Positions 36,168-48,372 of a stretch of DNA of 48,372 bases are shown here, one piece after another. Every line of letters starts with the position of its first letter. Positions within the stretch are counted from its first letter, which is position 1. Below the pieces are notes generated by a model that saw nothing but the letters and a program-made list of their open reading frames with translations, searched no databases and was not told the DNA's origin. The translations under genes were made by a program, and so were the position numbers. The DNA comes from Leptolyngbya sp. 'hensonii' (GTDB taxonomy: Bacteria > Cyanobacteriota > Cyanobacteriia > GCF-001939115), in NCBI RefSeq assembly GCF_001939115.1, contig NZ_MQTZ01000060.1, forward strand, positions 1 through 48,372. Direction: 5' to 3'.

Positions 36168-36983
36168 TTAAGGCTTGGGCAAGGCCCCATCCAGAGAGAT
36201 AAATGGCAGGGCCCCATTGCCCCCTAGAACGGTTGGGAAGTGGCCATCCCACTTTTCGATCGCCTGCTTTTGCAACAGTTCCGGCGTCAGGGTTTCCCGC
36301 AGTAACCGCTGTGCCTGAGCTGTGCCCTGAGCGCGGTTGACTTCCGCTTCGGCTTCGCGGGTGGCTTTCACCGCGACGAATTCGGCTCGTTTCGCTTCCT
36401 GTTCGGCAATCTGCTTGGCCTCCACTGCTTCACTGAAACGATCGGAGAAATGAACTCCCACCAGGGAAATATCATCGACCCCGATATAGTAATTGGCCAA
36501 CCGACCCGTCAGGGATTGATCAACCCCTGCTTTGACCTCTTCCCGCTTGGTAATAATCTCCTCAGCGGTGTACCGGGCCATCACGGCTTTCAAAACTTCT
36601 TCGACTGCGGGGTTAATGATCCGCTGCACCACCTGGTTTTCATCCCCAATCTCTTGAAACATGACATTAGCCTGGGTGGGCACGATATGCCAGTTTAGGG
36701 CCACATCGGTAAACACATCCTGCAGGTCTTTGGAAGCAGCCTGGGTCGGGATCTGGTGCTTTTGCACCCGCACACTCAATTTCTGGACGGTGTTGATCAC
36801 AGGCACAATGGGGTGAATCCCTTCTCCCAGAACTTCTGGTAGGACTCGACCAAATTGCATCACAACTCCACGTTCCCCCGCATTGACAATCACAAATGGT
36901 TTCAGAACGGTCACCATCAGGAGGAGGAGCAAAGCCAGGATCAGGGAGATCGTCGCGGTTCTGGAGGAATCAGTTGATTTCAC
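36168..36983 (-). CDS. SPFH/prohibitin-like membrane protein (paralog 1)
   Basis: This 271-aa Band 7/SPFH protein has one N-terminal membrane anchor (ISLILALLLLLMVTVLKPFVIV). The prohibitin-type core follows: VNAGERGVVMQFGRVLPEVLGEG, the DVALNWHI strand, AVEEVLKAVMARYTAEEIITKRE, and the coiled-coil AEQEAKRAEFVAVKATREAEAEVNRAQG. Such proteins form large membrane rings and modulate proteases or membrane domains. It is the second of two adjacent paralogs of identical length (271 aa each) and lies 60 bases downstream of the other. They are a likely heteromeric pair like prohibitins 1 and 2. Confidence 0.9.
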   Translation of the reverse strand: MKSTDSSRTATISLILALLLLLMVTVLKPFVIVNAGERGVVMQFGRVLPEVLGEGIHPIVPVINTVQKLSVRVQKHQIPTQAASKDLQDVFTDVALNWHIVPTQANVMFQEIGDENQVVQRIINPAVEEVLKAVMARYTAEEIITKREEVKAGVDQSLTGRLANYYIGVDDISLVGVHFSDRFSEAVEAKQIAEQEAKRAEFVAVKATREAEAEVNRAQGTAQAQRLLRETLTPELLQKQAIEKWDGHFPTVLGGNGALPFISLDGALPKP

Positions 36984-37043
36984 AGCTTCTTTCCTTATGG
37001 ACGGGACAGTGGATAGGAGACGGTGCAGTCATATGGCCCTGCC

Positions 37044-37859
37044 TCAGTTTTTCTGAACTGAGGAGAGCTTACCGGGATCGATATTGATAAATGGCAGGGC
37101 TCCATTTCCCCCCATGACGACGGGAAACTGGCCATTCCATTTTTCGATCGCCAGCTTTTGGAGCAGTTCTGGTGTCAGGGTCAGACGCTGCAGGCGCTGG
37201 GCTTCAGCCTGTCCCTTCGCTCGATTGACTTCGGCTTCAGCTTCCTTGGCAGCCCGTTGGGCAATAAAGTCTGCCTGTTTGGCCTGTTGCTCAGCGATCT
37301 GTTTGGCCTCGATCGCCTTATTAAACTCTGCCGAGAAACTGACATCAACCAGGGAAACGTCGTCGATGATAATACCGTAAGGCTTCAGCCGTTCCCGGAT
37401 CTGGTCATCGATCTCCCCTTTCAATTCAGTCCGGCGGGTGATAATTTCCTCGGCTGTTTTCTTGGCTGTTGCAGCTTTGACCACCTCTGAAACGGCGGGC
37501 GTGATAATGCCGTTGACAATTTGACCCTCATCTCCGACCTGCTGGAAGACCCGATTCACCTTCAGGGGATCAACGTGCCAGTTGACAGCGATATCTGCGG
37601 TGACGTTCTGCAGGTCTTTAGAGGCCGCTTCTGCTTTGACATCATTCTTCTGGACCCGCACGTTAATTTTCTCGATCGTAGTCACGATCGGGACGATTGG
37701 ATGTAAGCCCTCATCCAGGATTCTGTCCTGGACTTTGCCGAACTGCATGATCACACCTCGTTGTCCGGCATTCACGATGGTGAAGGGGCGAAAGAGTAAT
37801 GCTCCAAGGATCAGCACAACCCCTCCAGTCAGATAGAGAGGATAGGTAGAAGATTTCAT
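37044..37859 (-). CDS. SPFH/prohibitin-like membrane protein (paralog 2)
   Basis: This 271-aa protein has the same architecture as its neighbour: N-terminal anchor YLTGGVVLILGALLFRPFTIV, core VNAGQRGVIMQFGKVQDRILDEG, DIAVNWHVDPLKVN, AVSEVVKAATAKKTAEEIITRR and coiled coil AEQQAKQADFIAQRAAKEAEAEVNRAKG. Both end with a TPELLQKxAIEKWxGxFPxVxGGNGALPFI block, which shows a tandem duplication followed by divergence. It is transcribed first. Confidence 0.9.
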   Translation of the reverse strand: MKSSTYPLYLTGGVVLILGALLFRPFTIVNAGQRGVIMQFGKVQDRILDEGLHPIVPIVTTIEKINVRVQKNDVKAEAASKDLQNVTADIAVNWHVDPLKVNRVFQQVGDEGQIVNGIITPAVSEVVKAATAKKTAEEIITRRTELKGEIDDQIRERLKPYGIIIDDVSLVDVSFSAEFNKAIEAKQIAEQQAKQADFIAQRAAKEAEAEVNRAKGQAEAQRLQRLTLTPELLQKLAIEKWNGQFPVVMGGNGALPFINIDPGKLSSVQKN

Positions 37860-45994: not shown

Positions 45995-46825
45995 TCATGG
46001 TTGCTCATCCTGTTGGTTGTACAGGACTGCGTGCTCATCCTTTTTAGGTCGTAAGTTGCGAACAACGGTGCGGAGCATGTTGTCAACAGGATAGAGAACC
46101 TGATTCACAACTTCTTCTTTACGAGCTCGAAAAGAGGTGATGTGGTAATAATCTGTCCCATCCGGAGAGGCTTCTGTGAAGTAGTAAATGTTGATGGATT
46201 TGCGCGAATCTCCATCTGGGGTGTTGACGCGACGGTGCCCATGCCAGGACCGCCGATCGGTGGCGAAAATGGCCATGCGATTAAAGATTGGCAGAATGGC
46301 CACCGATCGGGACATATCCGGGTACCAGAGTTCCAGGTGTCCGCCCTTCTCCTCGGTCCAGTTCCGGTTGAGATAGAGGAGCAAGTTCAGCCGTCGATAA
46401 TGGTGGGTTACGGGATGGGAACTGTTGTCAATATGAACATTGAGGAAACATCCATCTCCTCCCTGGGCCAGACCAGAAGCATAGAGCTGAGGATCAGCCA
46501 GTAAGTCTGGCATGCCCGTGATCTGGGAGAGAACCTGCAACAGGCGTGGGGAATGGAGGTGCTCAAAAATAATCTTGCTAAAGATGGGATGAAATTTGCC
46601 GATGTCAGGGTCTTGAGCCTTGTGTTGACGGAAATCGCTGAGCACGTCCATTTCCGTCATTTGAGGGAAAACCTGGGAGGCTGCCATGGCGACTTCAGGA
46701 TCTAGCAGATCATCGACCACCAGATGCGGGAAGGGTTGAGCCTCACGAAATTGTTTGGCATACTGCTCAACATTTTTCTCTAATAGATCGTAATTTAGCA
46801 TCGGATTTTGGCTCCAATCCAGCAT
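45995..46825 (-). CDS. 2-oxoglutarate/Fe(II)-dependent oxygenase (prolyl-4-hydroxylase-like)
   Basis: This 276-aa double-stranded beta-helix oxygenase has iron ligands in LNVHIDNSS (HxD near residue 132) and a distal His in RRSWHGHRRV (near 195). The 2OG-binding Arg is expected in DSRKSINIYYFTE. Flanking blocks LNLLLYLNRNWTEEKGGHLELW and FNRMAIFATD are characteristic of this 2OG-FeII_Oxy family. It starts MLDWSQNPMLNYD; an internal ATG at residue 9 is possible. Found in a polysaccharide cluster, it may hydroxylate a sugar, lipid or peptide; the substrate is unknown. Confidence 0.88.
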   Translation of the reverse strand: MLDWSQNPMLNYDLLEKNVEQYAKQFREAQPFPHLVVDDLLDPEVAMAASQVFPQMTEMDVLSDFRQHKAQDPDIGKFHPIFSKIIFEHLHSPRLLQVLSQITGMPDLLADPQLYASGLAQGGDGCFLNVHIDNSSHPVTHHYRRLNLLLYLNRNWTEEKGGHLELWYPDMSRSVAILPIFNRMAIFATDRRSWHGHRRVNTPDGDSRKSINIYYFTEASPDGTDYYHITSFRARKEEVVNQVLYPVDNMLRTVVRNLRPKKDEHAVLYNQQDEQP

Positions 46826-46867: not shown

Positions 46868-48091
46868 TCAGGAGGGGCACCAGAGATGGCGACTTTCCAC
46901 AATTGCCCCATAAGTCTCTGCCAGACGGTGAGCAATTTCATCCCAGGCATAGGTGCGGGTGGCATAGGCCCGCCCCCGATCGCCCATCGCCCGCCCCAGG
47001 CCGGGGGTGGTGAGGAGGGTGACGATCGCCGCTGCGAGGGCATCGCTGGTTCCAGGGACGACCAGACCGGCTCTGGCGGCTGCGACCTCTGGGGAGATCT
47101 GGATTTCTGGGGTAACGATGACGGGCAACCCCGCCATCATGGCTTCGGCCACAGCAATGCCAAAGTTTTCCGAGTAGGAGGGCAGAACAAACAGGTCAGC
47201 CCCCTGCAGGAGAAGTTGTTTGTCGAGGCCAGCGACGAAACCAGTCAGGGTGGCGCGATCGGTGAGGCCGAGGCTGGTCATCAGTTGTTCCAGGTAGGCG
47301 GTGTATTCAGGCTCACCTGAGCCCGCCAGGATGAGGTGAAAGGAGTGATGCTGGGCAGCTAGTTGACCGAGAACCTGGATCAGCAGGTCAGGCCGTTTCT
47401 TGTAATGGAGACGGGAGAGGTAGAGGACGATCGGGGTGTCTGGGGCAATCCCATAGCGATGACGTAACCAGTGGCCCGCCTCGGAGGAGACAGGTATCCG
47501 GTTCACCCCCAGGGGCAGGGTGATCAGGGGAGCCTGAACCCCAAAAGACTGGACATCCTGGGCTTCTCCAGCGGAGGTGCAGTGGACTCCTGCTGCTCCA
47601 TTCAGGTTGGATCGTTCCAGGAGGGTGGCATAGACCTGCTTCTTGAGACGACTCTGGGCTAGAGCCCAGGGACTGAGCTGGCCCATTACCCGCATGGTGT
47701 AGGGAACCTGTTGTAGACGGGCGATCGCCCCAGCACAGGTCGAGGGGTAGGAAAACAGGTAGTGGGTATTCAGCACATCGTAGTCCCGGATGTGCTTCCA
47801 GAGCCAGCAGGTGAGGCTGGCCGAGAAGACAAACCCCCGGTCTTTGCCCAATGCCAGCCGATCGATCGGCGGAAAGGATTGGGGAAAGAAATGTACGGGC
47901 ACGCCATCATAGTCCACTGGCTGATAGAGCGGTACTTCCAGGGGAGCCGAGCCATCCGCCCCATTGTCATTGGTGGTGGCGATTTCGGCGTCCACCCCCT
48001 GGGCTCGCAGGGAACGCACCAGGTTCAGGATCGCCTCGCTGGGGCCACCCCGACGCGGAGACACAGAGAGTGTCACATGCAGAATTTTCAT
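46868..48091 (-). CDS. Glycosyltransferase family 4
   Basis: This 407-aa GT-B transferase starts MKILHVTLSVSPRRGGPSEAILNLVRSL, the usual GT4 acceptor-domain opening. It has VLYLSRLHYKKRPDLLIQVL, LAGSGEPEYTAYLEQLM and the donor E-x7-E motif SENFGIAVAEAMMAGLPV. Its ATG overlaps the stop of the upstream glycosyltransferase gene by four bases (ATGA). Its 3' part (46934-47155) is almost identical to the corresponding part of that upstream gene. Confidence 0.92.
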   Translation of the reverse strand: MKILHVTLSVSPRRGGPSEAILNLVRSLRAQGVDAEIATTNDNGADGSAPLEVPLYQPVDYDGVPVHFFPQSFPPIDRLALGKDRGFVFSASLTCWLWKHIRDYDVLNTHYLFSYPSTCAGAIARLQQVPYTMRVMGQLSPWALAQSRLKKQVYATLLERSNLNGAAGVHCTSAGEAQDVQSFGVQAPLITLPLGVNRIPVSSEAGHWLRHRYGIAPDTPIVLYLSRLHYKKRPDLLIQVLGQLAAQHHSFHLILAGSGEPEYTAYLEQLMTSLGLTDRATLTGFVAGLDKQLLLQGADLFVLPSYSENFGIAVAEAMMAGLPVIVTPEIQISPEVAAARAGLVVPGTSDALAAAIVTLLTTPGLGRAMGDRGRAYATRTYAWDEIAHRLAETYGAIVESRHLWCPS

Positions 48092-48372
48092 GAGGTTACC
48101 TCCCTGACGTTCGGCCCGATAGTACTGTAGGCTCCAGCAAGCTTGGCGGCAATTTCATCCCAGGCATAGGTGCAGGTGGCATAGGCCCGCCCCCGATCGC
48201 CCATCGCCCGCCCCAGGCCGGGGGTGGTGAGGAGGGTGACGATCGCTGCTGCGAGGGCATCGCTGGTTCCAGGGACGACCAGACCGGCTCTGGCGGCTGC
48301 GACCTCTGGGGAGATCTGGATTTCTGGGGTAACGATGACGGGCAACCCCGCCATCATGGCTTCGGCCACAGC
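48088..48372 (-). CDS. Glycosyltransferase family 4, C-terminal part (cut by window end)
   Basis: This is the 3' end of a second GT4 gene. The visible protein begins within the donor-site helix AEAMMAGLPVIVTPEIQ and ends TIGPNVREVTS. Over 222 bases (48151-48372) it differs from the downstream paralog at only about two positions, then the last ~20 codons diverge completely. The true start lies beyond the window. The two genes are tandem, overlap by ATGA, and should be co-transcribed. Confidence 0.88.
   Translation of the reverse strand, partial: AVAEAMMAGLPVIVTPEIQISPEVAAARAGLVVPGTSDALAAAIVTLLTTPGLGRAMGDRGRAYATCTYAWDEIAAKLAGAYSTIGPNVREVTS

Follow-up and report, generated by a model that had tools for sequence, protein, structure and literature searches.

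Two adjacent, predicted family-4 glycosyltransferase genes of Leptolyngbya sp. 'hensonii', hereafter A (upstream) and B, form a mosaic in which near-identical blocks alternate with stretches of old silent divergence. Their identical runs are longer than those of shuffled data, the sampled relatives carry a single copy, and A and B are sisters in the divergent islands. The history that we consider likely is a tandem duplication in this lineage, later followed by patchy gene conversion between A and B. One family-4 gene would have been duplicated to give A and B head to tail, and the copies would have diverged until many silent sites differed. Gene conversion by homologous recombination would later have overwritten patches of one copy with the sequence of the other, either through four or more tracts or through a single event split by mismatch repair. 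We infer the mechanism of recombination and the number of events from the pattern of differences.

Two overlapping genes on two contigs

The window, i.e., the stretch of DNA that we analysed, is the whole of contig C60 (48,372 bp), in a genome of 5.94 Mb and 77 contigs. C60 ends inside copy A of a repeat. Since the window is the whole contig, the full extent of the upstream gene was hidden from the initial annotation. We located its 5' part by searching this genome at the DNA level; six places were listed, the window's own among them. Positions 1-889 of C21 (minus strand, at the contig start) matched B from its ATG to nt 889, with 91% identity, and the mosaic is visible there too. The C21 part stops, by homology to B, 47 nt short of the first base of the C60 part. 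Gene A would have 406 codons if the gap is as in B, codons 297-312 being incompletely assembled. Nothing else in this genome was close to either part of A; the next best proteins were 49% (C20) and 44% (C12) identical. The assembly broke within a tract that was probably converted, which concealed a tandem gene. The genes are the following:

46868..48091, minus strand: gene B, putative family-4 (GT-B fold) glycosyltransferase, 407 aa (ORF, Pfam, AlphaFold, Foldseek)
48088..48372, minus strand: 3' part of gene A, the upstream tandem copy, 94 codons (ORF and repeat)
C21:2-889, minus strand: 5' part of gene A, 296 codons (homology), with 47 nt unassembled before the C60 part
48088..48091, minus strand: overlap (ATGA) of the stop of A (TGA) and the start of B (ATG) (sequence)

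The N-terminal Glyco_transf_4-type and C-terminal Glycos_transf_1 domains scored above the Pfam cut-off in the whole of B (Glyco_trans_4_4 at 15-194, Glyco_transf_4 at 15-197, Glycos_transf_1 at 212-374), and in the two parts of A. These profiles assign both genes to the family-4 glycosyltransferases. The AlphaFold model of B (mean pLDDT 90.4) predicts a GT-B fold; the folding alignment included B, 25 of the 29 relatives, two paralogs, and the 5' part of A (L052, L053, L055, and L062 were left out). Foldseek, used with B only, returned GT4 matches, with query-normalised TM of 0.67-0.77 to the listed HepE, BshA, and PimB' chains. The predicted fold, the Pfam domains, and the domain order of A and B are common to the GT-B family-4 enzymes Anabaena Alr3699/HepE, BshA, and PimB', to which the Foldseek alignments have 18-23% identity.

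A mosaic of near-identical and divergent blocks

The two 3' segments that drew attention to this locus are indeed nearly identical. The repeat search gave a single direct repeat of 224 nt (99%, 46932-47155 and 48149-48372) with two differences: one in codon 379 (46957/48174), which is R in B and C in A, and a silent one in codon 354 (47030/48247). The initial annotation described the final 20 codons as unrelated, which holds for the DNA (39/60 nt differ) but less so for the protein, as 15/20 residues of codons 387-406 differ and five are common to A and B. The alignment of A and B is gap-free to codon 386; they differ at 82/889 nt in the 5' part and at 2/224 in the 3' part before similarity ends. 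The blocks, in the direction of transcription of B, are:

48029..48091, minus strand: old block, codons 1-21; 12/63 nt differ, 10 counted synonymous; synonymous p-distance 0.58
47963..48028, minus strand: putatively homogenised block, codons 22-43; 1/66 nt differs; synonymous p-distance 0.055
47807..47962, minus strand: old block, codons 44-95, N-domain; 41/156 nt and 16/52 aa differ; synonymous p-distance 0.54
47699..47806, minus strand: putatively homogenised block, codons 96-131, N-domain; 1/108 nt differs; synonymous p-distance 0
47687..47698, minus strand: old block, codons 132-135; 5/12 nt differ; synonymous p-distance 0.78
47507..47686, minus strand: putatively homogenised block, codons 136-195, N-domain; 0/180 nt differ; synonymous p-distance 0
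47459..47506, minus strand: old block, codons 196-211, around the interdomain linker; 21/48 nt and 8/16 aa differ; synonymous p-distance 0.75
47204..47458, minus strand: putatively homogenised block, B codons 212-296; 1/255 nt differs from A on C21; synonymous p-distance 0.015
46932..47155, minus strand: near-identical tract, copy B, codon 313 into codon 387; 2/224 nt differ (repeat search)
46868..46933, minus strand: divergent tail of B, codon 387 to stop; 39/60 nt differ in codons 387-406
48149..48372, minus strand: near-identical tract, copy A (repeat search)

With block edges set after the differences were known, synonymous p-distance was 0-0.055 in the five near-identical blocks (0.016 in codons 313-386, where 2/222 nt differ), 0.54-0.78 in the four old blocks before the tail, two of them short (four codons in 132-135, 16 in 196-211), and 0.92 in codons 387-406. 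Near-identical blocks make up 277 of the 390 codons compared (about 71%), and 275 of these 277 residues are identical. Because synonymous divergence switches along the gene from high to nearly zero and back, we favour conversion over simple duplication. Of the two options first offered, recent duplication or gene conversion, the second is supported; uneven silent divergence rules out a simple recent duplication. Identity over the whole gene had been named as the outcome that would speak against conversion. Instead, identity is patchy and interrupted by five islands: codons 1-21, 44-95, 132-135, 196-211, and the tail from 387. The check for conversion tracts, run on A and B, thus revealed near-identical tracts, silent sites included, flanked by old divergence.

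We compared the lengths of uninterrupted runs with shuffled data. In the C21 part, two stretches are identical over 182 and 179 nt; no run in 20,000 shuffles was longer than 125. When only silent changes were considered, the 5' part had two runs of 58 codons. The longest was reached in 63 of 50,000 shuffles, which makes it by itself only moderately rare, and the second longest in none of 20,000. Two longer runs, one of 304 nt and one of 97 silent codons, span the unassembled gap and are unreliable as support.

Relatives, gene order, and the age of the duplication

The relatives are a class-level sample in which this genome stands alone at the genus, family, and order ranks. The class search, with four candidates scored per genome, gave a match at E 1e-95 or better in 76 of 388 genomes, this one counted, and the best relative was 61% identical. 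The named relatives were at most 44% identical (8 loci). None of the 29 relative loci had a second B-type gene in flanks of about 1.5 kb (shorter in L039 and L043), the second matches being 24-29% identical. Wider regions (3.5-20 kb) from 12 of the same genomes had one B-type gene each. Sequence comparisons used 27 orthologs, i.e., the 29 relatives minus L053 and L055, which have a stop in the matched stretch.

The orthologs put two explanations of the blocks to the test. Their mean nucleotide identity to A or B in the near-identical blocks is 53-66%, and these blocks are therefore not constrained at the DNA level, which rules out this cause of identity. A simple duplication followed by locally fast protein change, e.g., by selection in acceptor loops and without any conversion, would place the islands where the protein is most variable. 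Islands 44-95, 196-211, and the tail are in fact the least conserved among orthologs (mean amino acid identity 0.27-0.46, against 0.51-0.69 in near-identical blocks). Yet, silent sites track the same blocks, codons 1-21 have ten synonymous differences for two changed residues, and ortholog conservation in that block (0.53-0.58) is not below that of codons 313-386 (0.51). Selection on the protein does not account for this, and we find the explanation hardly credible. The dN/dS of codons 44-95 is about 0.2 (0.186/0.958), which suggests constraint, with no sign of diversifying selection.

The duplication seems to be older than the tracts. In four pooled islands (93 residues) A and B are identical at 65/93 positions (70%), and the best ortholog reaches 0.524. 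We built a tree from these 93 sites with A, B, the 27 orthologs, two paralogs from this genome, and two named Leptolyngbya relatives, and A and B were sisters with a FastTree support of 0.993. This sisterhood, together with the 70% amino acid identity, indicates that duplication predated the tracts. A was nearer to 18 of the 27 orthologs, B to four, and five were ties. B may thus, as a weak indication, be the more changed copy; nearness to orthologs bears on the amount of change, not on the direction of the tracts.

Donors outside the pair were also considered. A third copy as conversion donor is ruled out, since no other gene in this genome is near-identical (49% identity at most). We also rejected the paralogs C20 and C12 as the origin of the islands (0.38-0.52 identity to either copy). 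The same alternation of blocks would arise if a recent whole-gene tandem duplication had been followed by recombination of five islands into one copy from the homolog of a related strain, and the sampled genomes include no close relatives. We regard this as unlikely: some five independent imports would be required, and their source would have to be closer to A and B than all 27 orthologs and C20/C12 (best 0.524 vs 0.70 between A and B). The GC3 of A and B differs in three short islands of few codons (132-135, 196-211, and 387-406), as imports might produce, but is about equal in codons 1-21 and 44-95. No near source of the islands was found among the 27 orthologs and the two paralogs, a set with no close relative.

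The locus looks like a cyanobacterial polysaccharide cluster, with genes that we take, by eye, to be Wza, Wzc, and Wzy. We used proteins of C21 and of C60 to search 12 relative regions (3.5-20 kb). Homologs of C21 and C60 genes occurred together on one contig around a single B-type gene in seven of them (L067, L068, L070, L071, L073, L075, and L077). In L067 the order was: homologs of three C21 glycosyltransferases (5453, 2849, 1704), one B-type gene, the methyltransferase (C21:942), the GDSL gene (window 44990), a glycosyltransferase (window 43388), and lastly Wzc and Wza on the opposite strand. L069 matched the C21 side only, L072 and L078 had only weak matches beside B, and L074 and L076 had B alone. 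Gene order in relatives supports the joining of C21 to C60 across the gap, and an ancestral state with one copy.

This order also bears on the reliability of the assembly. The contig ends inside an identical stretch with 47 nt missing, and an identical core is presumably hard to phase with short reads, so that reads of the two genes might have been merged, a few differences averaged out, and extra tandem units missed. The identity would then be partly or wholly false. We find this very improbable: C21 itself, at a distance from the break, contains near-identical blocks (66, 108, and 180 nt) bracketed by divergent ones, a pattern that merged reads would not easily produce. Moreover, the homologs of C21 and C60 genes share one contig in the seven regions above, and the assembly is rated 99.98% complete and 0.12% contaminated.

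Several features of the surroundings deserve mention. At L007 1-15000, a series of glycosyltransferase and methyltransferase genes on the minus strand, together with a membrane protein that is Wzy-like by eye, extends the Wza/Wzc-like cluster of the window onto another contig. The methyltransferase follows the single B-type gene in L067 and L070, and here (L007 942-1697) it lies ahead of A, with a 2OG-Fe(II) oxygenase gene (window 45995-46825) between B and the GDSL gene; duplication may have been accompanied by local rearrangement. A second B-type gene of this genome, 49% identical, lies in L009 (4513-6914) directly after a glycosyltransferase 58% identical to C21:1704-2852. Unlike in L009, a methyltransferase sits on C21 between that glycosyltransferase and the B-type gene. 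The window has another, more diverged tandem pair at 36168-37859: two neighbouring genes on the minus strand, of 271 codons each, whose similar proteins are presumably prohibitin/SPFH-like (by eye).

Distribution over domains and known cases of conversion

Codons of A and B differ at 51/195 positions in the N-domain, 14/16 in the linker stretch, 3/159 compared in the C-domain, and 20/20 in the tail. A single residue of the 159 compared in the C-domain differs. The Fisher test of N- against C-domain codon differences (1.2e-11) is descriptive, as codons within one tract are not independent. The donor-side domain thus appears almost homogenised, and the acceptor-side domain retains more differences. 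Near-identity is nevertheless not limited to the donor-sugar domain, as had been proposed: codons 22-43, 96-131, and 136-195 of the N-domain differ at 1/66, 1/108, and 0/180 nt. It had also been suggested that conversion could shuffle donor and acceptor specificities. Because the C-domains are nearly the same protein and most differences lie in the N-domain, we infer that one donor sugar and two acceptors are likelier. A and B would then use a common donor sugar nucleotide and different acceptors in exopolysaccharide synthesis.

The persistence of the islands has two readings. Recombination may pass poorly through diverged stretches, or selection may purge conversions there. In the model of B, codons 44-95 comprise an N-domain loop, strands 58-61 and 64-69, and a low-confidence loop at about 71-90. 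We tentatively suggest, as one possibility, that selection keeps the islands. Repeated conversion would hold the donor halves identical for the same nucleotide sugar, and overwrites of codons 44-95, the linker, and the tail would be purged. The pair would then provide one donor site with two acceptor heads, which would act one after the other in making a single polysaccharide. As a natural chimera set, with a near-identical donor domain and defined differing patches mostly on the acceptor side, A and B could be used to test which patches govern acceptor choice.

By title and abstract opening, none of the matches listed concerned conversion between cyanobacterial or capsule glycosyltransferases, and a printed case is possible. 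One paper on Neisseria protein-glycosylation genes contains the words 'gene conversion' (PMC6959607). Conversion between prokaryotic paralogs that leaves the parts for specificity distinct is known, and A and B are a further case. The genes of release factors RF1 and RF2 are not known to be in tandem. Their conversion was reported in Bacteroidia and Chloroflexi (PMC4530459). Like A and B, they are old bacterial paralogs with a converted domain of shared function and distinct specificity domains; they are essential translation factors with one nearly whole domain converted, whereas A and B are in tandem, with several tracts that touch both domains (PMC4530459). The mtrA-1/mtrA-2 genes of methanogen mtr operons are also duplicates in one operon, with a homogenised shared domain and another part that differs (PMC4632066). 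Their conversion, in Archaea, is said to persist through the history of the lineages, whereas A and B are known from one genome (PMC4632066). In Salmonella, conversion between tufA and tufB, which have 12 nucleotide differences, was measured in the laboratory (PMC5485169). These are, like A and B, duplicate bacterial genes of about 1.2 kb, and their tracts are shaped by mismatch repair; tufA and tufB are nearly identical, whereas A and B retain old divergence (PMC5485169).
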